Below, piece by piece: positions 16,131-40,657 of a stretch of DNA of 41,812 nt. The DNA comes from a virus. Under the pieces are notes generated by a model. The model was not told the DNA's origin. It did no database searches and was given only the letters and a program-made list of their open reading frames with translations. The position numbers and the translations under genes are program-made. Numbering within the stretch: the first letter of the stretch is position 1; every line of letters starts with the position of its first letter. The DNA lies in the IMG/VR virus record IMGVR_UViG_3300046500_000147, positions 1-41,812 of that record. One strand, 5' to 3'.

Positions 16131-16343
16131 GCAGGGTTGAATCCAAACCCTGCAATGCTGAAATCCGCATGGATGCTGGGTTGTAGCAGGGTAGGCAGGG
16201 TTTGCGGGGTTATGCGCACGTAGGCGCGAATTGCTGAGTTAGTTGCGCGGTTTATTTTTTTGCCGGGACATTAATAAACACCCTGCAACCGTGCATACCC
16301 TGCCAAGAGGCAGTGTTCATGCGGGTTCCAGAGTTGCAGGGTT
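16117..16343. other. Iteron cluster, candidate replication origin
   Basis: Eight copies of GCAGGGT(T/A/G) in 227 bp. Direct: 16121, 16131, 16186, 16195 and 16336. Inverted: 16146-16153, 16279-16286 and 16296-16303. The first and third sit in a perfect 12-bp inverted repeat, CATTGCAGGGTT (16117-16128) and AACCCTGCAATG (16146-16157). The middle, about 16245-16280, is T/A-rich (TTTATTTTTTT and ATTAATAAA), suitable for strand opening. The cluster starts in the stop region of the primase-helicase gene, the usual place for a phage origin. No gene is seen in 16131-16386. Confidence 0.68.
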
Positions 16344-16386
16344 TGAACAAAAGCCGGAATGCCCGGCAATCGAGACAGGAGCAGTG

Positions 16387-17142
16387 ATGAGGGTAGGCGT
16401 ACAGAGCAATTTCCCGGAAGTGGCGAGCCGCCTCAAGGCACTCGGCCGCCAAGCCCCGTTCGTCGCCGCCGTCAGCCTGACGCGCTCGATCAAGGACGTC
16501 GAGCCTGCCGAGCAGGCCGAGATGAGGGCGAAGTTCGATCGTCCGACCTCCTATGCGCTCAACGGGATGTTCATCAAGCCGGCTACGAAAGAGAGACTCG
16601 AGGCTCGCATCTGGGTAAAGGACAACCCATCCGGCAAGGGCACGCCGGCCGACCGCTTCCTGCTGCCTCAGATCAACGGTGGCGTCCGTGGCCAGAAAGG
16701 TATGGAGCGCATGCTGCAGCGCGCTGGCTTGATGCCCGCAGGCTGGTTCGCGGTGCCTGCCGTCGGCGCACAGTTGGACGGCAACGGCAATGTAAAGCGC
16801 AGCCAGATCGTTCAGATCCTGTCGCAGTTGAAGCTGCAGCGCGGCAGCGGATACGAGTCGCGTGCCAGCGGCAGCACCAGGTCGAATCGCACGATCACGC
16901 GCCAAGGCGTGACCTACTTCGCGCTGGCGGGTAAGCGGCGCGGGCTGATGCCAGGAATCTACCTCAAGCGCAAGTTTGCGCATGGCACCGCAGTGCGTCC
17001 CGTCTTCATCTTCGTGTCGTCGGTGAGCTACAGGCCGCGCATGCGATTCCACGAGGTCGGCCAAGCCACGGTCAATGCCCGCTTCCCGGTCCATTTCAAT
17101 GCGGAATGGGGACGGGCGGTGGCCGGCGCCCGGCTGCGGTAG
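16387..17142 (+). CDS. Phage structural/assembly protein of unknown role (GpZ-like?)
   Basis: 251 aa from the ATG at 16387, preceded by GGAG. An open frame upstream crosses the iteron region and is rejected. The opening FPEVASRLKALGRQAPFVAA, SLTRSIKDVE and FDRPTSYALNGMFIKPATK, then GVRGQKGMERMLQRAGLMPA, resembles proteins found beside terminase genes in many siphoviruses and sometimes compared with lambda minor tail protein Z. The identification is weak. The C-terminal part is basic. It lies between origin and terminase, so it may be the first late gene. Confidence 0.6.
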   Translation: MRVGVQSNFPEVASRLKALGRQAPFVAAVSLTRSIKDVEPAEQAEMRAKFDRPTSYALNGMFIKPATKERLEARIWVKDNPSGKGTPADRFLLPQINGGVRGQKGMERMLQRAGLMPAGWFAVPAVGAQLDGNGNVKRSQIVQILSQLKLQRGSGYESRASGSTRSNRTITRQGVTYFALAGKRRGLMPGIYLKRKFAHGTAVRPVFIFVSSVSYRPRMRFHEVGQATVNARFPVHFNAEWGRAVAGARLR

Positions 17143-17255
17143 GTGGGCAGGCTGGGTGCCACCCCCGGCTTAGGTTCTCCCGGAAGGTAAGGCTGGCAAG
17201 GGTAATTCGGACCCCGTCTTTTCTCTAGTTATCGACCACTGCTAAGGGGGTTGTT
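17143..17255. other. Gap upstream of terminase; possible cos region
   Basis: 113 bp without a gene, directly before the small terminase gene. In phages with lambda-type terminase the cos site lies here. A small GGGTG-CCA-CACCC-like hairpin (GGGTGCCACCC, about 17154-17164) and a GC-rich block around CCCCCGG are present, but I cannot define a cleavage site. A possible ribosome site, TAAGGGGG, ends at 17250. Confidence 0.35.
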
Positions 17256-17777
17256 TTGTTGGATTTTGATTTGACCAAGCCTATGACGCAGGCTGCCTTC
17301 GGCGCCCTGGTCGGTGTGAGCCAGCAGGCCATCGGCAACCTGGTCGCGCGCGGAATTTTGGACACCAGCGTGCCGGGCCTGCAACTGCTCCAGGCCTACT
17401 GCTCGCACCTCCGTGAGCAGGCCGCCGGTCGTGCGGCCACCGGGGACCTCGACCTGGCCGGCGAGCGCGCCGGGCTGGCCAAGGCCCAGCGTGAGCGGAT
17501 CGAGATGCAGAACGCAGTGACGCGCGGCGAGCTGGCCCCGGTCGCGCTGATCGAGGAGGTGCTGTCGAAGGCGGGCGCTAAGATCGCCGGCACCCTGGAC
17601 GCGATCCCGGGCGCCGTGAAGCGCCGTGTTCCCGTACTCCCGGCTGAGGAGATCAAGAACATCGCCACCGAGATCGCGCGCGTGCGCAACATCGTGGCCG
17701 CCATGTCGCTGGCCGATCTGCGCGAGGGGGATGGGGAAGGCGATGACGAACCCGAGGCCGAGGTAATCGACGTATGA
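17256..17777 (+). CDS. Terminase small subunit (Nu1-like)
   Basis: 173 aa, DNA-recognition subunit of the packaging motor. Residues ~10-35 (MTQAAFGALVGVSQQAIGNLVARG) are the winged-helix motif typical of Nu1/gpNu1. A helical linker (RAGLAKAQRERIEMQNAVTR) and a C-terminal acidic region for contact with the large subunit follow. The start is TTG at 17256 (or TTG 17259), with AAGGGGG upstream; the first ATG (17283) would cut the fold short. It overlaps the large subunit start by 4 bp (ATGA). Confidence 0.85.
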   Translation: MLDFDLTKPMTQAAFGALVGVSQQAIGNLVARGILDTSVPGLQLLQAYCSHLREQAAGRAATGDLDLAGERAGLAKAQRERIEMQNAVTRGELAPVALIEEVLSKAGAKIAGTLDAIPGAVKRRVPVLPAEEIKNIATEIARVRNIVAAMSLADLREGDGEGDDEPEAEVIDV

Positions 17778-19807
17778 GCGACATGTACGAGGTCATCAAC
17801 TGGCAATCACCAGAGCTGGAGAAGACCGTCAGCCGCGGCCTGGCGGCGTTCGGCGTGCCGGCGCCGATGTCCCTGGAGGAGTGGTCGCGCAAGCACTTCT
17901 ACCTGTCGAAGGAATCCTCGTACATCGAGCAGGGCTGGATCCCATGGCCGTTTCAGCGCGCCATCCTGGCCTGCATCAGCAATGACGACATCCGCGCCAT
18001 CGACTGGAAGAAGTCGGCACGGGTGGGCAACACGAAAATCACGCTCGCCTCGATCGGCTACTTTGCCGAGCACAAACGCCGCAACCAGGCGCTGTGGCAG
18101 CCGACGGACGGTGACAGCGACGAGTTCGTGAAGACCGAGCTCGACACTATGCTGCGCGACGTGAAGGTGATGGCCAAGGCGATGCCGGCGCACATCTCGC
18201 GCCACAAGGACAACACCCTTTCCCAGAAGAAGTTCCTCGGGTGCCTGCTGCACACCCGCGGCGGTACCGCGGCGCGCGCTTACCGCAGGATCTCGGTCGA
18301 TGTGGCCTACCTCGACGAGCTGGACGCCTTCGACCGCGACATCGAGAAAGAAGGCTCGCCCGACAAGCTGGCCGGCAAGCGCGTCGAGGGCGCTACGTTC
18401 CCGAAGGTCATCACCGGCTCAACGCCGAAGCTGCAGGGCTTTTCGCTGATCGACGACCGTTACAATGCGGCCGACGAGCGGTTCAAGTACATGATCCCTT
18501 GCCCCGAGTGCGGCGGCTTCCACCCGCTGGTATGGGGCAAGAAGGACGACAGCACCGGGATGAAGTGGGTCGACGGGGACCCGGCCAGCGTGCGGCACCT
18601 GTGCCCGCACTGCCAATGTCTGATCGACCAGGGCCAGTACCTGGCGGTCGCCGAGCAGGGGCGGTGGCAGAACGCCGACGGCAGCATTACGATCGACGCG
18701 GCCGGCGTGTTCCGCAACGGCGCCGGCGAGGAGATCCCGCCGCTCCCGCACATCGCCTTCCACGTGTGGACGGCATACAGCCCACTGGTATCGTGGCAGA
18801 CCCTGATCGAAGAGTTCCTCGACGCCTACGAGAAGGCCCAGGGCGGCGACATCACCCTGATGAAGACCTTCACCAACACCACGCTGGGCGAGGTGTGGGC
18901 GGTCGATCAGGAGAAGACCGACGTCGACCAGCTGAAGGACCGCGCCGAGCCGTACAAGCTGGGCACCGTGCCGACGGGATGCGTGCTGCTGCTGGCCGGC
19001 TGCGACACTCAGGACAACCGAATCGAGGTGACCGTGCGCGGCTATGGCCGCGGCTGCGAGACCTGGCACATCGACCACCGGATCTTCTACGGCAACCCGG
19101 GTGAGGATCAGGTGTGGCTGGACGTCGCCGAATACCTCTTCGAGAATGACTTCCTGCATGCGGGCGGCCAGAAGCTGCGCATCCACGCCTCCGCGATCGA
19201 TACCGGCGGCCACTACACCCAGGCGGTCTACAACTTCGTCCATACCTACGCCGGCATGGGCCATCGCATCTTCGCCGTGCGGGGCAAGCCGGGCCGGGAG
19301 AAACACATCAAGGACGGCGCGGCCAAGGTCGACATCGACTGGCGCGGCAAGAAGCGGCGCCGCGGGCTGATCCTCTGGCATGTCGGTACCAACCTGGCAA
19401 AGGACCTCCTGTACGGGCGCCTGCAGATTGCACGACCCGGGCCCGGTTACATGCACTTCTCCAAGGACGCGCCGGACGAGTACTACGCCCAGATGGCAGG
19501 GGAGGCGCGTGTCGAGCGCGCTGTCGCCGGCGGCAAGGAATCCCGCTGGGCCGCACTGCGCAAGCGCGTCGAGGCCTGGGACTGCACGGTCTACGCCGTC
19601 TGGCTGGAGACGCACCTCGACCTGGTGAAAAAGACCGGGCGTTACTGGGACCAGCTGGAGGAGCAGGTACAGCCCGCCATCGGCGACCTGTTCGGCGGCG
19701 CCACATCGGCCGAGCCAGCACGGCTGGAGCCGGCACCAGAAGAGCGGGCGCCAGCCGTGGTGCGCGGGAAGATCTCGATCGCCGGAACGAGGAGGGGCGC
19801 AGCGTGA
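17774..19807 (+). CDS. terL: Terminase large subunit (lambda GpA family)
   Basis: 677 aa, the ATPase-nuclease that packages DNA into proheads. Walker A-like KSARVGNTK (80-88, as in lambda gpA); Walker B VDVAYLDELD (175-184). Two Cys pairs (CPEC 243-246, CPHC 277-280) form a zinc site known in this family. The C-terminal nuclease region starts around LLAGCDTQDNRIEV, followed by ASAIDTGGH and later Asp residues. Length is normal. GpA-type terminases cut at cos, so cohesive-end packaging is expected. Confidence 0.95.
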   Translation: MSDMYEVINWQSPELEKTVSRGLAAFGVPAPMSLEEWSRKHFYLSKESSYIEQGWIPWPFQRAILACISNDDIRAIDWKKSARVGNTKITLASIGYFAEHKRRNQALWQPTDGDSDEFVKTELDTMLRDVKVMAKAMPAHISRHKDNTLSQKKFLGCLLHTRGGTAARAYRRISVDVAYLDELDAFDRDIEKEGSPDKLAGKRVEGATFPKVITGSTPKLQGFSLIDDRYNAADERFKYMIPCPECGGFHPLVWGKKDDSTGMKWVDGDPASVRHLCPHCQCLIDQGQYLAVAEQGRWQNADGSITIDAAGVFRNGAGEEIPPLPHIAFHVWTAYSPLVSWQTLIEEFLDAYEKAQGGDITLMKTFTNTTLGEVWAVDQEKTDVDQLKDRAEPYKLGTVPTGCVLLLAGCDTQDNRIEVTVRGYGRGCETWHIDHRIFYGNPGEDQVWLDVAEYLFENDFLHAGGQKLRIHASAIDTGGHYTQAVYNFVHTYAGMGHRIFAVRGKPGREKHIKDGAAKVDIDWRGKKRRRGLILWHVGTNLAKDLLYGRLQIARPGPGYMHFSKDAPDEYYAQMAGEARVERAVAGGKESRWAALRKRVEAWDCTVYAVWLETHLDLVKKTGRYWDQLEEQVQPAIGDLFGGATSAEPARLEPAPEERAPAVVRGKISIAGTRRGAA

Positions 19808-20097
19808 GCATGGAAGAGGATCCGGACATCGTCCAGGTGATCATCCTGGCGTGCCGCCAGAGTGGACTCGACGCCGCCGCAGCGCACGAGATCGAGCTGC
19901 GCATCCGCGCCCAGTACGGCGGCCTGCGCGTGCGCATTCCGAAGCGGAAGAAGCACCCGACGAGCCAGGAGCGCGAGCTCGTCCTCGCCGACGGCATCAC
20001 GAACATGAGCAATGAGGAGATCATGGGCAAGCACGGCATCAGCAGGGCCACGTTGTACCGGATGATGAAGCGCGGCACCTCGGGGAACAACGGTTAG
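19804..20097 (+). CDS. Mor/C-family transcription activator embedded in the late operon
   Basis: 97 aa from a GTG overlapping the terL stop (GTGA); an ATG lies 6 bases on. EIELRIRAQYGGLRVRIPKR, then a loop, and MSNEEIMGKHGISRATLYRM match the Mor family of Mu: an acidic dimerisation start, a G-G-x-x-V-x-I-P-K strand and a C-terminal HTH. Mor activates Mu middle transcription and C its late transcription. Here the gene sits inside the packaging/head operon. A 22-bp element beginning 3 bp after its stop recurs upstream of the protease gene and may be its target. Confidence 0.78.
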   Translation: MSMEEDPDIVQVIILACRQSGLDAAAAHEIELRIRAQYGGLRVRIPKRKKHPTSQERELVLADGITNMSNEEIMGKHGISRATLYRMMKRGTSGNNG

Positions 20098-20099
20098 CA

Positions 20100-20144
20100 T
20101 CGTCTCAATTTGCCCTGTTTTGCAACTGTTGAGTTCCCTAAACT
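20100..20144 (+). promoter_or_regulatory. Late-operon intergenic repeat, copy 1
   Basis: A 22-bp element (20100-20121, starting TCGTCTCAA and ending CCCTGTTTT) is followed by 17 bp and TAAACT (20139-20144). The same element, spacing and TAAAGT recur at 22002-22046. A -10-like hexamer at a fixed distance from a conserved block suggests an activator-dependent promoter. The connector gene starts at 20168. Confidence 0.6.
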
Positions 20145-20167
20145 GCGCTTTTCTCCAGGGGGAAAGC

Positions 20168-20395
20168 ATGTCCGGAATCACTTTAGAAAAAGCACAGTCG
20201 CAGCTCGACGCCTACCTGGCGGCCGAGGCCGCCGTCCTGGCCAGCCAGTCGTACGAGATCGCCGGCCGCAAGCTCACCCGCGCCAACCTGTCCGAGATCC
20301 AGCAGGGGATCAGCACCTGGGATGCTCGTGTGAAGAAGCTCGACCGCAGCGCCCGCGGCAGCACCCGCGCCCGTACCATCATTGTGGGAGGCTGA
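20168..20395 (+). CDS. Head-tail connector-type small protein (DUF6148-like, gpW position)
   Basis: 75 aa from the ATG at 20168; the open frame extends upstream but into the repeated promoter-like element. ITLEKAQSQLDAYLAAEAAV, SQSYEIAGRKLTRANLSEIQ and ISTWDARVKKL match the DUF6148/gpW-like pattern, a small head-joining protein between terminase and portal genes. In lambda, gpW seals the portal after packaging. One base separates its stop from the portal start. Confidence 0.8.
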   Translation: MSGITLEKAQSQLDAYLAAEAAVLASQSYEIAGRKLTRANLSEIQQGISTWDARVKKLDRSARGSTRARTIIVGG

Positions 20396-20396
20396 C

Positions 20397-21992
20397 ATGG
20401 CAGACAAGCCAAATATCTTCAACCAGCAGAACCTGCTGGACAAGGCGATCGCCTACGTCGCGCCGCGCGTCGCTGCCCGGCGCCAGGCAGCGCGCGCCCA
20501 GCTCGCCCTCAGCGGAGGCTATACCGGTGCCCGAGTCGACACGGCCACCATGAACCGCTGGATGCCGACAGCCGGATCGGCAACCGCCGACACGATCCGG
20601 GACCTGCCGATGCTGCGCGCGCGCAGCCGCGACCAGATGCGCAATGCGCCGGTCGCGCTCGGCGCATTGAACACGACTGTCAGCCATGTGGTCGGTACCG
20701 GTCTCGCGTACACCCCTGCCATCGACGCGGCCTTCCTCGGCATGACGGCGGAGGAAGCGGAAGCATGGTCTGAAGACACCAAGCGCCGCTTCGACGCATG
20801 GGCAGGCTCGCTGGACTGTGACCTCGCTCGGAAATTGAACTTTTACGGGATCCAGGACCTATCCGTGCGCTCGCAGCTGGAGAGCGGCGACATCTTCGTC
20901 ATCACACCGCGCGTCGCGCGCGCTGGCGCCGCCGCTCGTCTGGCCCTGCAGCTGATCGAGGCCGACCGGGTATGCAACCCGGAGCGGCGTGCTGACACCG
21001 AAACCATGGTCGACGGCATCGAGATCAACCCTGACACCGGGGAGGCCGTCGCCTGTCATATCGCCCGAAAGCATCCGGGCGACTTGACCGGCACCTCCGG
21101 CAACACCTGGACGCGCGTGGCCATGCGCGGCGACAGCACCGGGCGCCGCAACGTACTGCACATGTTCAAGCCTCTGCGTCCCGGCCAGGTGCGTGGCGTT
21201 CCGATGATCGCCCCGATCCTCGAGCCGCTCAAGCAGTTGAGCCGCTGGACTGACGCCGAGTTGAACGCCGCGGTGGTCAGCAGCATGTTCAGCGTGTTCG
21301 TCAAGATGGACCCCGACGCCTTCGAGGATATGTTCGACGACAAGTCGAAGGAATCGATCATCAACAAAGGCCTCGCCTGGACGGGTGAAATGGAGTCGGG
21401 CCAGGCGATCAACCTGCTGCCCGGCGAAAGCGTCGAGACCAGTTCGCCGGGCCGCCCGAACCCGGCGTTCGACCCTTTCTGGGCCGCGATCGTGCGCCAG
21501 ATCGGCATGGCCCTTGAGATGCCGGTCGAGGTGCTGACAATGCACTTCCAGAGCAGCTACAGCGCCGCTCGCGCTGCGCTGCTCATGGCATGGAAGGCGT
21601 TCCGCAGCCGGCGCGACATGCTGGCAACCTACCTGTGCCAGCCGGTGTTCGAGCTGTGGCTCGCCGACGAGGTGGCGGAAGGGCGGATCCACGCACCCGG
21701 CTTCTTCACCGACGACCTGGTGCGCGCGGCCTGGTGCTCAGCTGTGTGGACCGGCGATGGCCCCGGCAGCATCGACCCGGAGAAGGAAGTCAACGCTGCG
21801 CAGAAGCGGATCGACCTCGGCATCAGCACGAAGGAGGCGGAGAGCATCCAGTACGACGGCGTGTCGTGGCGCGCGAAGCACACCCAGCGCGTCAAGGAAA
21901 TCAATGCCGAGAAGGCCGACGGCATCTACATCCCTCCGCCCGGCACGCCGGCCGTGGCAGTGCCATCGGCCGCACCGGTCGAAGAAAAATAG
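20397..21992 (+). CDS. Portal protein (lambda gpB family)
   Basis: 531 aa, forms the dodecameric DNA channel at the capsid vertex. The ATG at 20397 has GGGAGG upstream. Recognisable family blocks: TIRDLPMLRARSRDQMRNAP, NTTVSHVVGTGL, SGDIFVITPRV, LIEADRVCNP, NVLHMFKPLRPGQVRGVPMI and PVEVLTMHFQSSYSAARAAL. The C-terminal YDGVSWRAKHTQRVKEINAE tail is disordered after the last helix. Length fits PF05136 portals. Confidence 0.93.
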   Translation: MADKPNIFNQQNLLDKAIAYVAPRVAARRQAARAQLALSGGYTGARVDTATMNRWMPTAGSATADTIRDLPMLRARSRDQMRNAPVALGALNTTVSHVVGTGLAYTPAIDAAFLGMTAEEAEAWSEDTKRRFDAWAGSLDCDLARKLNFYGIQDLSVRSQLESGDIFVITPRVARAGAAARLALQLIEADRVCNPERRADTETMVDGIEINPDTGEAVACHIARKHPGDLTGTSGNTWTRVAMRGDSTGRRNVLHMFKPLRPGQVRGVPMIAPILEPLKQLSRWTDAELNAAVVSSMFSVFVKMDPDAFEDMFDDKSKESIINKGLAWTGEMESGQAINLLPGESVETSSPGRPNPAFDPFWAAIVRQIGMALEMPVEVLTMHFQSSYSAARAALLMAWKAFRSRRDMLATYLCQPVFELWLADEVAEGRIHAPGFFTDDLVRAAWCSAVWTGDGPGSIDPEKEVNAAQKRIDLGISTKEAESIQYDGVSWRAKHTQRVKEINAEKADGIYIPPPGTPAVAVPSAAPVEEK

Positions 21993-22001
21993 GGCGTCAA
22001 G

Positions 22002-22046
22002 TCGTCTCAATTTGCCCTGTTTTTGAGACAAGCTCATCAGTAAAGT
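22002..22046 (+). promoter_or_regulatory. Late-operon intergenic repeat, copy 2
   Basis: Same 22-bp element as at 20100-20121, here at 22002-22023, then 17 bp and TAAAGT (22041-22046). In this copy GTCTCAA (22004-22010) pairs with TTGAGAC (22023-22029) as a perfect 7-bp inverted repeat; copy 1 keeps only CTCAA...TTGAG. The protease gene starts just downstream. Confidence 0.6.
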
Positions 22047-22064
22047 TTCGGCATCAAAACCTTG

Positions 22065-23384
22065 ATGCCGAGCATGAAAATCTCCGACATTCTGACCGCG
22101 CCCTGGGCCATCGAACCGAGCAAGCTCATCGAGCTGCACGCGATCTACCAGGCCCACGTGCGCGGTGAAGCCATCGACATCGAAGCCGTCGAAAAGCGCC
22201 TCGGGCGCCCACTGGCGAACGAGCAGCGTAGCTACGAGATCATTGACGGCGTGGCGGTCCTGTCGATCGAAGGCGTGGTCGCTAAGAAGATGAACATGTT
22301 CAGCCAGATTTCCGGCGGCGCGAGCAGCCAGCTGGCACGCCGCAGCCTGCTCGAAGCGAAGCGCGATCCGGCGGTCCACAGCATCATCCAGTACATCGAT
22401 AGCCCAGGCGGCACTGTGGACGGCACCCAGGCCTATGCCGACACCGTCTTCGACGCCCGCAGCGACAAGCCGATCGTCACCCTGGCGAGCGGCACCATCG
22501 CCAGCGCCGCGTACTGGTTCGGCAGCGCCGCCTCCAAGGTCTACATCGCGGACACGACCACCAGCGTCGGCTCCATCGGCGTGGTCACCGCGCACGTTGA
22601 CGTCAGCGCCCAGGAAGCGGCGCGCGGCATCAAGACGACCGAGATCACTGCTGGCAAGTACAAGCGCATCGCAAGCCAGTACGGCCCGCTGTCCGAGGAA
22701 GGCCGCCAGTCGATCCAGGACCAGCTCGACTACATGTATTCGCTGTTTGTCGGCGCCGTGGCCAAGAACCGCGGCGTCAGCGCCGACGTCGTGCTGAGTG
22801 ACATGGCCGATGGCCGCGTGTTCATCGGCCAGCAGGCGATCGACGCCGGCCTGGTCGACGGGATCATCACCCTCGACGCCCTGATCGAGCAGCTGAACCG
22901 GGAGCGTGGCATTTCCGGCCGCGCCCCGACACCACCCCGCGCTGGCCATGCGCGGACCACTTCTACCACCACACAAGGAAGTCTCATGAACAAAGAAGAA
23001 CTCGAGGCGCAACACCCGGCGCTGGCCGCCGAGCTGCGCGCGGACGGTGCAAAGGCCGAGCGCGAGCGCATCAAGGCAATCGAAGACCAGAGCATCCCGG
23101 GCCATGACGCCCTGATCGCTACGCTGAAGTTCGACGGCCAGTCGACTGCTGGCGACGCCGCCCTGGCCGTCCTGGCTGCCGAAAAGTCGGCGCGCACGGC
23201 ACACGCAAAAGCCTCGGCCGCTGATGCGCCGAAGCCGGTCGTTGTGGCCCCGCCGGCAGCGGCGCCCGAGGCGACGACCGCCGAAAAGTCCCGCGAGCAG
23301 CTGGACAAGGACGCCAAGGAATACATGGCATCCCACCCTGGCACCTCGTACGTCGCCGCCTACAAGGCCGTCGGCGGCCAGTAA
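22065..23384 (+). CDS. S49/SppA-like capsid maturation protease fused to scaffold
   Basis: 439 aa. The N-terminal ~300 residues are a ClpP-fold S49 peptidase of the lambda gpC type: AVLSIEGVV, IQYIDSPGGTVDG, the catalytic SGTIASAAYWFGSAAS block (nucleophile Ser ~147), SVGSIGVV and a candidate general-base Lys in TAGKYKRI (~198-200). The C-terminal ~132 residues are the scaffold, also made alone from an internal start at 22986. The start is uncertain among TTG 22062, ATG 22065 and ATG 22074. The enzyme would cleave head proteins during prohead maturation. Confidence 0.92.
   Translation: MPSMKISDILTAPWAIEPSKLIELHAIYQAHVRGEAIDIEAVEKRLGRPLANEQRSYEIIDGVAVLSIEGVVAKKMNMFSQISGGASSQLARRSLLEAKRDPAVHSIIQYIDSPGGTVDGTQAYADTVFDARSDKPIVTLASGTIASAAYWFGSAASKVYIADTTTSVGSIGVVTAHVDVSAQEAARGIKTTEITAGKYKRIASQYGPLSEEGRQSIQDQLDYMYSLFVGAVAKNRGVSADVVLSDMADGRVFIGQQAIDAGLVDGIITLDALIEQLNRERGISGRAPTPPRAGHARTTSTTTQGSLMNKEELEAQHPALAAELRADGAKAERERIKAIEDQSIPGHDALIATLKFDGQSTAGDAALAVLAAEKSARTAHAKASAADAPKPVVVAPPAAAPEATTAEKSREQLDKDAKEYMASHPGTSYVAAYKAVGGQ
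22986..23384 (+). CDS. Nested in-frame scaffold protein (Nu3-like)
   Basis: 132 aa, same frame as the protease gene, beginning at an ATG (MNKEELEAQHPALAAELRAD) with a strong AAGGAAG site, exactly where the protease domain ends. A helical, charged body (AKAERERIKAIEDQ), an Ala/Pro-rich linker and a C-terminal helix (TAEKSREQLDKDAKEYMASH) suit a capsid-binding scaffold. Lambda makes Nu3 from within gene C in the same way. The internal start is seen; the separate product is inferred. Confidence 0.8.
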   Translation: MNKEELEAQHPALAAELRADGAKAERERIKAIEDQSIPGHDALIATLKFDGQSTAGDAALAVLAAEKSARTAHAKASAADAPKPVVVAPPAAAPEATTAEKSREQLDKDAKEYMASHPGTSYVAAYKAVGGQ

Positions 23385-23420
23385 GCGCCAGCCCTTTAAA
23401 CCAACCCATAAGGAACTGTC

Positions 23421-23759
23421 ATGGCAGCAGCCGCATACAAACTTCTCACCCTGTCCGTGGTAGCGACCGCTGCCCTGACCCAGAACCGCGCCGTCACCGG
23501 CACTGGCGCCATCCCGGCCGCCGGCGCCCGTTGCCTGGGCTTCGCGGACGTCAATGGCGCGATCGGCGAGCGCGTGTCCGTCAACGCGATGGGCACCGCG
23601 GTGGCCGAAGCCGGCGCCGCTGTCACCGTCGACGCCCAGGTCGAGCTCGACGCCCAGGGCCGCGTCATCACCAAGAACACCGGTGTCGCCGTCGGTCGCG
23701 CCCTGAGCGCCGCCACCGCCGCTGGCCAGCAGATCGAGATCCTGTTGATCCCGAACTGA
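23421..23759 (+). CDS. DUF2190-type capsid decoration protein
   Basis: 112 aa, between scaffold and major capsid. NRAVTGTGAIPAAGARCLGF, ANGAI-like and VEAG-like blocks with VSVNAMGTAVAEAGAAVTVD and GRVITKNTGVAVGRALSAAT match DUF2190, a beta-rich trimeric decoration/cement protein like lambda gpD. It should stabilise the expanded head. The start has AAGGAAC upstream; length is normal. Confidence 0.85.
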   Translation: MAAAAYKLLTLSVVATAALTQNRAVTGTGAIPAAGARCLGFADVNGAIGERVSVNAMGTAVAEAGAAVTVDAQVELDAQGRVITKNTGVAVGRALSAATAAGQQIEILLIPN

Positions 23760-23793
23760 CCCATTCATCAACACACATCGTTAAGGAATCGTT

Positions 23794-24729
23794 ATGCCCC
23801 AGATGAACAATGCCCAGGCGCGCGTGGTGGACCCGGTCCTGACCTCGGCCGCGCAGGGTTACAAAAACGCCGAATTCGTCGGCGGTGCGCTGTTTCCGAA
23901 AGTGCCGGTCTCCCAGCGTGGCGGCAAGATCCTTTCGTTCGGCAAGGAAGACTTCATGCTGTACGCGACCGGTCGCTCGCCGGGCCAGAACACCAAGCGC
24001 GTCACCTTCGGCTACCAGGGTGCAGCGTACGCGCTGGAAAGCCACAGCCTCGAAGGCCTGCTGCCGGTCGAGACCCTGCAAGAAGGCCTGGCTGTGCCCG
24101 GCATCGACATGAGCATGGTCACCGTCAACAAGACCCAGAACATCATCGCCCTGCGCCTCGAAAAAGCCCAGGCCGACGCAGCGCGCAATGCTGCCGCCTA
24201 TGGCGCGAACAACAAGGTGACCCTGTCGGGCACCTCGCAGTGGAGCGACACCTCCAGTGACCCGGTCGCAGCTATCGAAGCCGGTAAGGAAGCCGTGCGC
24301 AAGCAGATCGGCAAGCGTCCGAACGTCGCCGTCATCGGTGCTGCCGTGTTCGCGGCGCTGAAGACCCACCCGAAGGTCCTGGACCGCCTCAAGTACACCG
24401 GTCGCGACGTCGCTACGCCGGAGCTGCTGGCCTCCCTGTTCGGCCTGGCCGAGGTGAAGGTCGGCGACGCCGTCTACGCATCCGACGACGGCACCTTCAA
24501 CGACGTCTGGGGCAAGGACGTGGTCCTGGCCTACACCGAAGTCGGCACCGTCGCCGAGCAGGGCGCGCCCTCGTACGGCTACACCTACCAGCTGGGCGGC
24601 TACCCGATCGTCGAGGAGCCGTACTTCGAACGCAACAACAAGAGCTGGGTGTATCCGGTCACCGACGAGGTAGCCCCGGTGGTCGCGGGCGCCACGGCCG
24701 GCTACCTGATCCAGAACGCGGTCGCGTAA
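23794..24729 (+). CDS. Major capsid protein
   Basis: 311 aa, position and length right for the main head protein (HK97 fold expected). NNAQARVVDPVLTSAAQGYK, FVGGALFPKVPVSQRGGKIL, YALESHSLEGLLP and the C-terminal GYTYQLGGYPIVEEPYFERN followed by WVYPVTDEV resemble major capsid proteins of lambda-like phages of Proteobacteria. It follows the decoration gene after 34 bp, with its own AAGGAATC ribosome site. Abundant codons and strong spacing fit a highly made product. Confidence 0.88.
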   Translation: MPQMNNAQARVVDPVLTSAAQGYKNAEFVGGALFPKVPVSQRGGKILSFGKEDFMLYATGRSPGQNTKRVTFGYQGAAYALESHSLEGLLPVETLQEGLAVPGIDMSMVTVNKTQNIIALRLEKAQADAARNAAAYGANNKVTLSGTSQWSDTSSDPVAAIEAGKEAVRKQIGKRPNVAVIGAAVFAALKTHPKVLDRLKYTGRDVATPELLASLFGLAEVKVGDAVYASDDGTFNDVWGKDVVLAYTEVGTVAEQGAPSYGYTYQLGGYPIVEEPYFERNNKSWVYPVTDEVAPVVAGATAGYLIQNAVA

Positions 24730-24763
24730 CGACGGCTGGTCCAACCACTTAACGGAGTCCAAC

Positions 24764-24943
24764 ATGAAAGTAAAAACCCTCGGGCCGGTCCAGCACGACG
24801 GCAAACCCGTGAAGGTGGGCGCCACGCTCGACCTCCCGGAAGACGCGGCGACGCAGCTGATCGACGCCGGTGCTGCGGAAGCAGTCGGTGGCGACAAAGC
24901 CGCAAGCACCGCCAAGACCGACAACGGCGGCGACGGCCAGTAA
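24764..24943 (+). CDS. Small conserved head-region protein (DUF7210-like, 59 aa)
   Basis: 59 aa. The ATG at 24764 has GGAG upstream. MKVKTLGPVQHDGKPVKVGA followed by LDLPEDAATQLIDAGAAEAV is a short, recurring phage sequence found just after the capsid gene. A single small beta/alpha domain is followed by a polar tail. Function unknown; possibly a neck or head-completion accessory. Confidence 0.7.
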   Translation: MKVKTLGPVQHDGKPVKVGATLDLPEDAATQLIDAGAAEAVGGDKAASTAKTDNGGDGQ

Positions 24944-40554: not shown

Positions 40555-40621
40555 GGCGCCATGGTGCCGTAGCGCGTTGGTAGCCCGGTGAGATTGCTCA
40601 AGTGTTAAAACAATTCTTGCT

Positions 40622-40643
40622 ATACTGTATGCGCATACAGTAT
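40622..40643. promoter_or_regulatory. LexA/SOS box between imuA and the PAAR-Tae4 block
   Basis: A perfect 22-bp palindrome with the consensus core CTGTATGCGCATACAG (40625-40640, CTGT-N8-ACAG). TATACT (40621-40626), a good -10 for the rightward imuA promoter, overlaps the box. The site lies in the 103-bp divergent gap and could control both directions; only the imuA side has a clear -10. Confidence 0.9.
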
Positions 40644-40657
40644 TTCAGGACATCCGC

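Follow-up and report, generated by a model that had tools for sequence, protein, structure and literature searches.

The packaging and head genes of an uncultured phage contain the same 22-bp element twice, and the first copy directly follows a small gene whose product resembles Mor, an activator of phage Mu. The question raised by this locus, which lies in the 41,812-nucleotide IMG/VR record IMGVR_UViG_3300046500_000147 (the whole of which was analyzed and is called the window), is what the element does and whether the neighboring gene product acts on it. A sequence-only reading had proposed that the Mor-like protein activates head genes internally. From the present analysis, the two repeats are very probably late promoters that the neighboring Mor-like protein recognizes and activates, and this protein probably switches on both promoters ahead of head genes. 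Comparison of about a hundred uncultured relatives shows concerted change in the protein's DNA-reading part and in the site that it targets.

The repeated element

The 22-mer was found on the plus strand at 20100-20121 and 22002-22023. These were its sole sites in the window with up to three mismatches allowed, and 100 dinucleotide shuffles contained no match. As the sequence-only reading had noted, each copy was followed after exactly 17 bp by a similar hexamer (TAAACT starting at 20139, TAAAGT starting at 22041), and each stood before a head gene, the first encoding a gpW-like adaptor (20168-20395) and the second an S49 protease (22074-23384). The mor-like gene (19804-20097, plus strand) ended 2 bp ahead of the first 22-mer. 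The conserved unit begins at the G of GTCTC. Copy 1 (20102-20144, plus strand) comprises a distal arm GTCTC (20102-20106), a core TTGCCCT (20110-20116), a degenerate proximal arm (about 20122-20126) and the -10-like hexamer TAAACT (20139-20144). Copy 2 (22004-22046, plus strand) has the same distal arm (22004-22008) and core (22012-22018), a proximal arm GAGAC (22025-22029) and the -10-like hexamer TAAAGT (22041-22046), and forms an inverted repeat, GTCTCAA...TTGAGAC (22004-22029). A generic sigma-70 scan returned three promoter-like sites in comparison with 1.1 by chance, none of which coincided with the elements; this is expected of promoters that lack a -35.

In relatives, the full form of the element was a dyad GTNNC...GNNAC, mostly of 24, 25 or 26 bp, with a central TTGCCCT(A/G) and a -10-like hexamer, nAnAnT, starting 37 bp past the start of the dyad. 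Among 64 copies anchored on the core TTGCCCT, the A, A and T of the hexamer (positions 38, 40 and 42 from the arm start) were conserved at 98-100%; for the arm's G, T and C the figure was 85-87%. No copy matched a -35 (TTGACA, 16-18 bp spacer) at more than three of six positions and 3 of 64 matched three, with a random expectation of about 44% for three or more. The distance between the distal arm and the -10 was fixed, and the proximal arm floated in position and was intact (5 or 6 of 6 bases) in 37 of the 64 copies, indicating that the distal arm is the one coupled to the promoter.

A study of Mu describes Pm as a promoter with a -10 and no -35, at which the activator site overlaps the -35 region; the Mor site there is 16 bp long, consists of 5-bp inverted repeats 6 bp apart, and is centered at -43.5 (PMC4390567). 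The elements shared with Pm the sigma-70-like -10 and the absence of a -35. A 16-bp site with a 5-6-5 inverted repeat was not found, the dyads spanning mostly 24-26 bp. The analogy to Mu drawn in the sequence-only reading therefore extended to the missing -35 and, as described below, to the protein fold, but not to the geometry of the site.

Association of the element with the mor-like gene

An exact scan of IMG/VR for 20 nucleotides of the element returned 15 stretches, and each copy in them was followed 17 nucleotides on by a TANANT hexamer. A search with the Mor-like protein, which involved no selection for the element, returned 21 IMG/VR loci and the bacterial genome of Massilia sp. Root418, and the element preceded the gpW-like gene in all 22. 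When 22 whole records were scanned with AAWTTGCCCTGTT, allowing one mismatch, 17 had two matches, three fragments had one and two records had three. In the three-copy record G015 the third copy lay among tail genes; in G002 the third match was on the opposite strand and contained one mismatch. The third element of a three-copy genome, at 1231 of locus L014 (minus strand of the locus), lay between tail genes; its second arm was complete, and TAAACT stood at the customary distance. Root418 itself was the only genome with the canonical pattern among 399 of its order, and the only one with a close Mor among 369 of its class.

The wider family was collected by four IMG/VR scans anchored on the gpW-like protein rather than on mor or the element. 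The 309 gpW matches, pooled with loci from the earlier searches, gave 139 distinct upstream contexts, 110 of which had a Mor-like gene upstream; one context was left out for its short upstream sequence, leaving 138 (110 with mor and 28 without). The element was scored without regard to arm sequence, by dyad symmetry, -10, spacing and central CCCT, with a threshold of at least 18. It reached threshold in 77 of the 110 contexts with mor versus 2 of the 28 without (Fisher p 9e-10), and in 0.4% of shuffled regions. For the most part, the element occurs only where a mor-like gene is present. Of the two exceptions, the genome of L117 carries its Mor-like gene farther off, about 3.9 kb upstream of gpW, and the helix is the one predicted from its GTCTC arms; in the fragment L131, an apparent transposase gene lies on the upstream side. 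In L023 and L039 an extra gene separated mor from gpW (gap 648) and the element remained with gpW; it therefore belongs to the promoter and not to the 3′ end of mor.

Two lineages departed from the usual arrangement. In a divergent one (L145, L148, L156, L165, L170 and L171) the element overlapped the 3′ terminus of mor or lay shortly after it, and most copies had TAGAAT as the -10. A sister lineage (L245, L251, L257, L266, L267, L275 and similar contexts) had another open reading frame upstream of gpW, often ending in GWSR; no Mor-like gene was found upstream of gpW in this lineage, and neither copy of the element was seen.

These distributions bear on whether the element is some other DNA site, serving packaging or recombination or as a homing target, that lies near mor by chance. 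Its location in the packaging and head region would suit such a site, as would a core, TTGCCCT, that is invariant though reading of the arms does not need it. However, such a site would account neither for the fixed gene positions of the two copies and the constant spacing of their -10, nor for arms that follow the Mor helix (see below), the near absence of the element where mor is missing, or its staying with gpW when a gene intervenes. We regard this explanation as the most improbable of those considered.

Covariation of the recognition helix and the arm

If the elements are binding sites of the Mor-like protein, changes in the arm would be expected to accompany changes in the part of the protein that reads DNA. 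The arm was called in 90 of the 110 mor contexts and compared with 87 columns of the Mor alignment. Five raw arm strings (GACAC, GCAAG, TTGCC, AGTTC and ATTTC, one context each) were placed by hand into register or class for the prediction, tree and pair tests; with these strings unadjusted, the ranking of columns gave the same top columns. For arm base 3 the column with the highest excess mutual information was residue 82; for base 4 the top columns were residues 82 and 80, and for base 5 it was residue 86. The values were 0.96, 0.70 and 0.34, compared with peaks of 0.06-0.14 in control columns of gpW, which share the phylogeny. Residues 80, 82 and 86 fall at the beginning of the predicted recognition helix (residues 81-93) or just inside it.

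The association persisted when relatedness was taken into account. In disjoint close pairs (at least 45% N-terminal identity, differing residue class), the corresponding base also differed in 20 of 21 pairs for residue 82, 4 of 4 for residue 80 and 6 of 6 for residue 86. Five helix residues predicted the arm in 76 of 90 contexts, using donors of less than 60% N-terminal identity, versus 49 of 90 for the nearest N-terminal relative. On a tree built from the N-terminal part only, the class of residue 82 changed 18 times and base 3 changed 17 times. The cleanest pair, L128 and L129, with helix residues SRRTIFN and SRRTLYR respectively, shared 93% N-terminal identity, and FN was paired with GTGCA and YR with GTGCC, in both arms.

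At least six arm classes were observed (GTCTC, GTGCC, GTGCA, GTTTC, GTCGC and GTGAC). Helices of the SRAT.YR type occurred with GTCTC in 36 of 39 cases, and SRRT.YR with GTGCC in 11 of 12, the exception having GTGAC. SRRT or SRRS with YN or FN was accompanied by GTGCA (4/4), SKTT.WR or SNTT.WR by GTTTC or a degenerate form of it (5/5), and HRAT, HRST or DRAT by GTCGC (8/8). Six extra contigs from a further Mor search, which lay outside the prior analysis, all fit the same rule: SRRT.YR with GTGCC, SRAT.YR with GTCTC, two SKTT.WR with the GTTTC type, SKAT.YR with GTCTC, and DRAT.YR with GTCGC in both copies; two of the six (L354 and L369) are near-duplicates of L105 and L101, which had already been used. 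One of the six, L358, had a degenerate distal arm, AGTTC, and a proximal GAAAC. Covariation of residues 80, 82 and 86 with the arm points to base-specific contacts between the helix-turn-helix and the dyad site.

The sequence-only reading had named an element acting only as RNA structure as a finding that would overturn it. An RNA hairpin in read-through late mRNA, functioning in processing, stability or attenuation, likewise predicts that complementary arms change together, and arm complementarity was kept while loop length varied. Pairing between arms would not, however, explain why the bases of the arm follow residues in the recognition helix of a protein that binds DNA, and it leaves the -10 hexamer at fixed distance unaccounted for. 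In addition, the proximal arm matched at five or more of six positions in just the 37 of 64 core-anchored copies noted above, the two copies in the window folded weakly (z about -1.1 and -1.2), and no fitting Rfam family was found. A hairpin as the main function was rejected on the helix covariation, weak folds, lack of an Rfam match and incomplete proximal arms, and we consider it very unlikely.

The two copies within single genomes

Recognition by one protein would predict identical arms in the two elements of a genome. Arms were callable for both copies in 32 of the 138 contexts, and the five-base arm was the same in 28 of the 32; the matching genomes spanned GTCTC, GTGCC, GTGCA, GTGAC, GTGTC and GTCGC. 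For this comparison the score omits the distance term, and in 78 contexts the start of the protease gene was not found by the search pattern. Of the mismatched pairs, L121 and L126 belong to the GTTTC class with degenerate arms, L116 shows an apparent difference of register, and L074 is a true difference.

The Mor-like protein

The AlphaFold2 model of the 97-residue protein contained five helices (predicted local distance difference test score 86.5), and the predicted specificity residues are S80, R81, A82 and R86. As in the Mor/C superfamily (1rr7, 9l0y, 9l0x), the model had N-terminal helices and a C-terminal helix-turn-helix. All of the first six Foldseek matches were Mor or C (Mu Mor, 1rr7; the Mor initiation complex, 9l0y; the C initiation complex, 9l0x; E 0.011-0.088). 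Alignment to Mor/C with VIA-align was modest (Z 4.5-5.3, root-mean-square deviation 5.6-6.2), and several unrelated helix-turn-helix domains scored above them. The match of the window protein to Pfam Mor (PF08765; E 0.0029, 18.0 bits) fell under the curated cut-off of 24.9 bits, and the protein is therefore called Mor-like and not a member of PF08765; it also matched phrog_532, late transcriptional activators, weakly (E 3e-5). Pfam Mor was matched at E of 0.01 or lower by 42 of 78 relatives (best 7.5e-9), and a profile of the 78 reached 1rr7 at E 0.003, alongside other helix-turn-helix proteins. The Mor assignment is weak from the window protein alone, and the family profile and the predicted fold lend it support.

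The inverted repeat suggests that the protein would bind as a dimer. A sequence search returned five Mor chains over two structure entries; if 1rr7 had one chain, four would be left in 9l0y, which hints, as a lead only, at two dimers per promoter.

Evidence of binding cannot by itself separate activation from repression, and the proximal arm falls between the -35 and -10 positions, where a bound protein could block polymerase. The Mor-like protein might then repress both promoters or act as a timing brake. Promoters without a -35 would nevertheless have low basal activity and leave little work for a repressor; moreover, the closest structural matches are activators whose structures were determined in initiation complexes, and the site, like that of Mu Pm, overlaps the -35 region. 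Repression is accordingly judged improbable, and activation is the preferred reading.

Gene organization of the locus

The window is a phage record with a terminal repeat of 127 bp. All genes of the cluster lie on the plus strand in lambda-like order: TerS (Nu1), TerL (gpA), Mor-like, gpW-like, portal, S49 protease, decoration protein and capsid. The genes for the small (Nu1-like) and large (gpA) terminase subunits (17256-19807) lie upstream of mor and both elements; TerL was 37% identical to those of lambda phages, and the mor-like gene overlaps the stop of its gene. Copy 1 is followed by the gene for the gpW-like head-tail adaptor (DUF6148/phrog_118) as its first gene and then by that for a portal protein of the lambda family (20397-21992). 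Copy 2 is followed by the head maturation protease gene as its first gene, and the genes for the head decoration or cement protein (Phage_cement_2, named head scaffolding in PHROGs; 23421-23759) and the major capsid protein (23794-24729) lie downstream of both promoters.

A strong stem-loop (22047-22072, plus strand; -15.6 kcal/mol, z -4.4), which ends 1 nucleotide upstream of the protease ATG, would form the 5′ end of the predicted copy-2 transcript and may stabilize the mRNA or limit translation of the protease. Its stem was kept and its loop altered in the close relatives L004, L005 and L013.

Two repeats lie elsewhere in the window. A 25-nucleotide inverted repeat in the early control region (10620-10644/12248-12272; 88% complementarity, halves separated by 1.6 kb) adjoins a repressor-like and a CII-like gene and possibly represents operator or promoter copies facing each other. 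A 21-nucleotide near-palindrome (86%) within 40615-40650 is flanked by two small open reading frames.

Discussion

The action of the Mor-like protein at both internal late promoters, as proposed in the sequence-only reading, is strongly supported by the covariation, the matching arms, the -10 without a -35 and the mor-linked occurrence of the element. Several observations weigh against it. Thirty-three of the 110 mor contexts did not reach the threshold for the element; some belong to divergent lineages in which it is shifted or hidden, and others show none. The spacing of the proximal arm varies and the arm is absent from many copies, so that a rigid dimer model does not fit. The core TTGCCCT(A/G) is near-constant while the arms change, and contacts of the arm-reading helix therefore do not account for it; polymerase or a different region of the protein may recognize the core. 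Three of the 39 SRAT-type helices had a distal arm other than GTCTC (two with distal GTCGC and proximal GAGAC, one with GTCAC), and SRST helices were split over three arms (three GTCTC, one GTCCC, one GTGCC). Finally, the arms differ in L074, with GTCTC in copy 1 and GTTTC at about +2.7 kb; this genome is perhaps a switch of specificity in progress, or a recombinant.

In the model favored here, the mor-like gene would be transcribed along with the terminase genes, and the C-terminal helix-turn-helix of its product would, judging from the covariation, read the 5-bp arm or arms GTCTC of each element. By analogy with Mu Mor and C, the bound protein would recruit or activate sigma-70 RNA polymerase at a promoter with a -10 only. 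This would boost P1, which serves gpW, portal and the genes after them, and P2, which serves protease, decoration, capsid and the genes beyond, with predicted start sites near 20150 and 22053, and transcription would step up where more copies of the products are needed, from terminase to portal and then to capsid. Since both promoters lie downstream of mor in this genome, direct autoactivation is not expected, and the wiring would be a coherent feed-forward arrangement. Activation of transcription and control of head-protein stoichiometry are what we infer; the raised head-protein output and feed-forward loop of the sequence-only reading have the same standing.

Similarity to Mu Pm/Mor (1rr7, 9l0y) lies in a small helical protein with a C-terminal helix-turn-helix, for which Mor is the best fold match, and in a -10 without a -35. 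The present system differs in its 24-26 bp arm span, fixed distal arm, floating or missing proximal arm and invariant central TTGCCCT, and in the location of the activator gene between the terminase and head genes of a lambda-type module. A study of Mu C describes several late promoters, their -35 elements poor, that share a single activator (PMC4461284). Mu C with its four late promoters (9l0x) is alike in that respect and in a fold among the top Foldseek matches, whereas here there are usually two promoters, both just downstream of the activator gene. The label of the weakly matched family PHROG 532 is silent on target sites. Gene order and packaging protein families are those of the lambda late operon (Nu1-A-W-B-C), which is expressed from one Q-antiterminated late promoter; no activator gene is known between A and W of lambda, and no internal element of this kind is known there.

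Megablast of 16200-24800 against phage records gave no match, and tblastn found neither the window Mor protein in phage records nor the L129 Mor protein in named phage and plasmid records. The gpW-like protein matched nine distant phage records by tblastn, and a 30-nucleotide query of the element gave short, chance-like matches only. In the open-licence PMC literature no description of Mor-type activators in lambda-type phages was found. Mor and C activators of Mu are known; new, as far as searched, are the site geometry, the position in a lambda-type head operon and the switching of specificity. It appears likely that a large group of uncultured lambda-type phages carries an activator with two matching internal promoters, and that specificity has been switched repeatedly at three helix positions, with both promoters rewritten.

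If this is correct, the promoter pairs would raise transcription at two boundaries, terminase/portal and portal/capsid, and lambda-like head operons would have a second route beside Q-type antitermination, in which a resident Mor-type activator acts on internal promoters where copy number must rise. The covariation would amount to a recognition code for the Mor/C family, and these phages would hold a natural set of orthogonal activator-promoter pairs whose code is readable and which could supply mutually exclusive activators for expression work. The family would also present an activator and two separate promoters changing specificity together.

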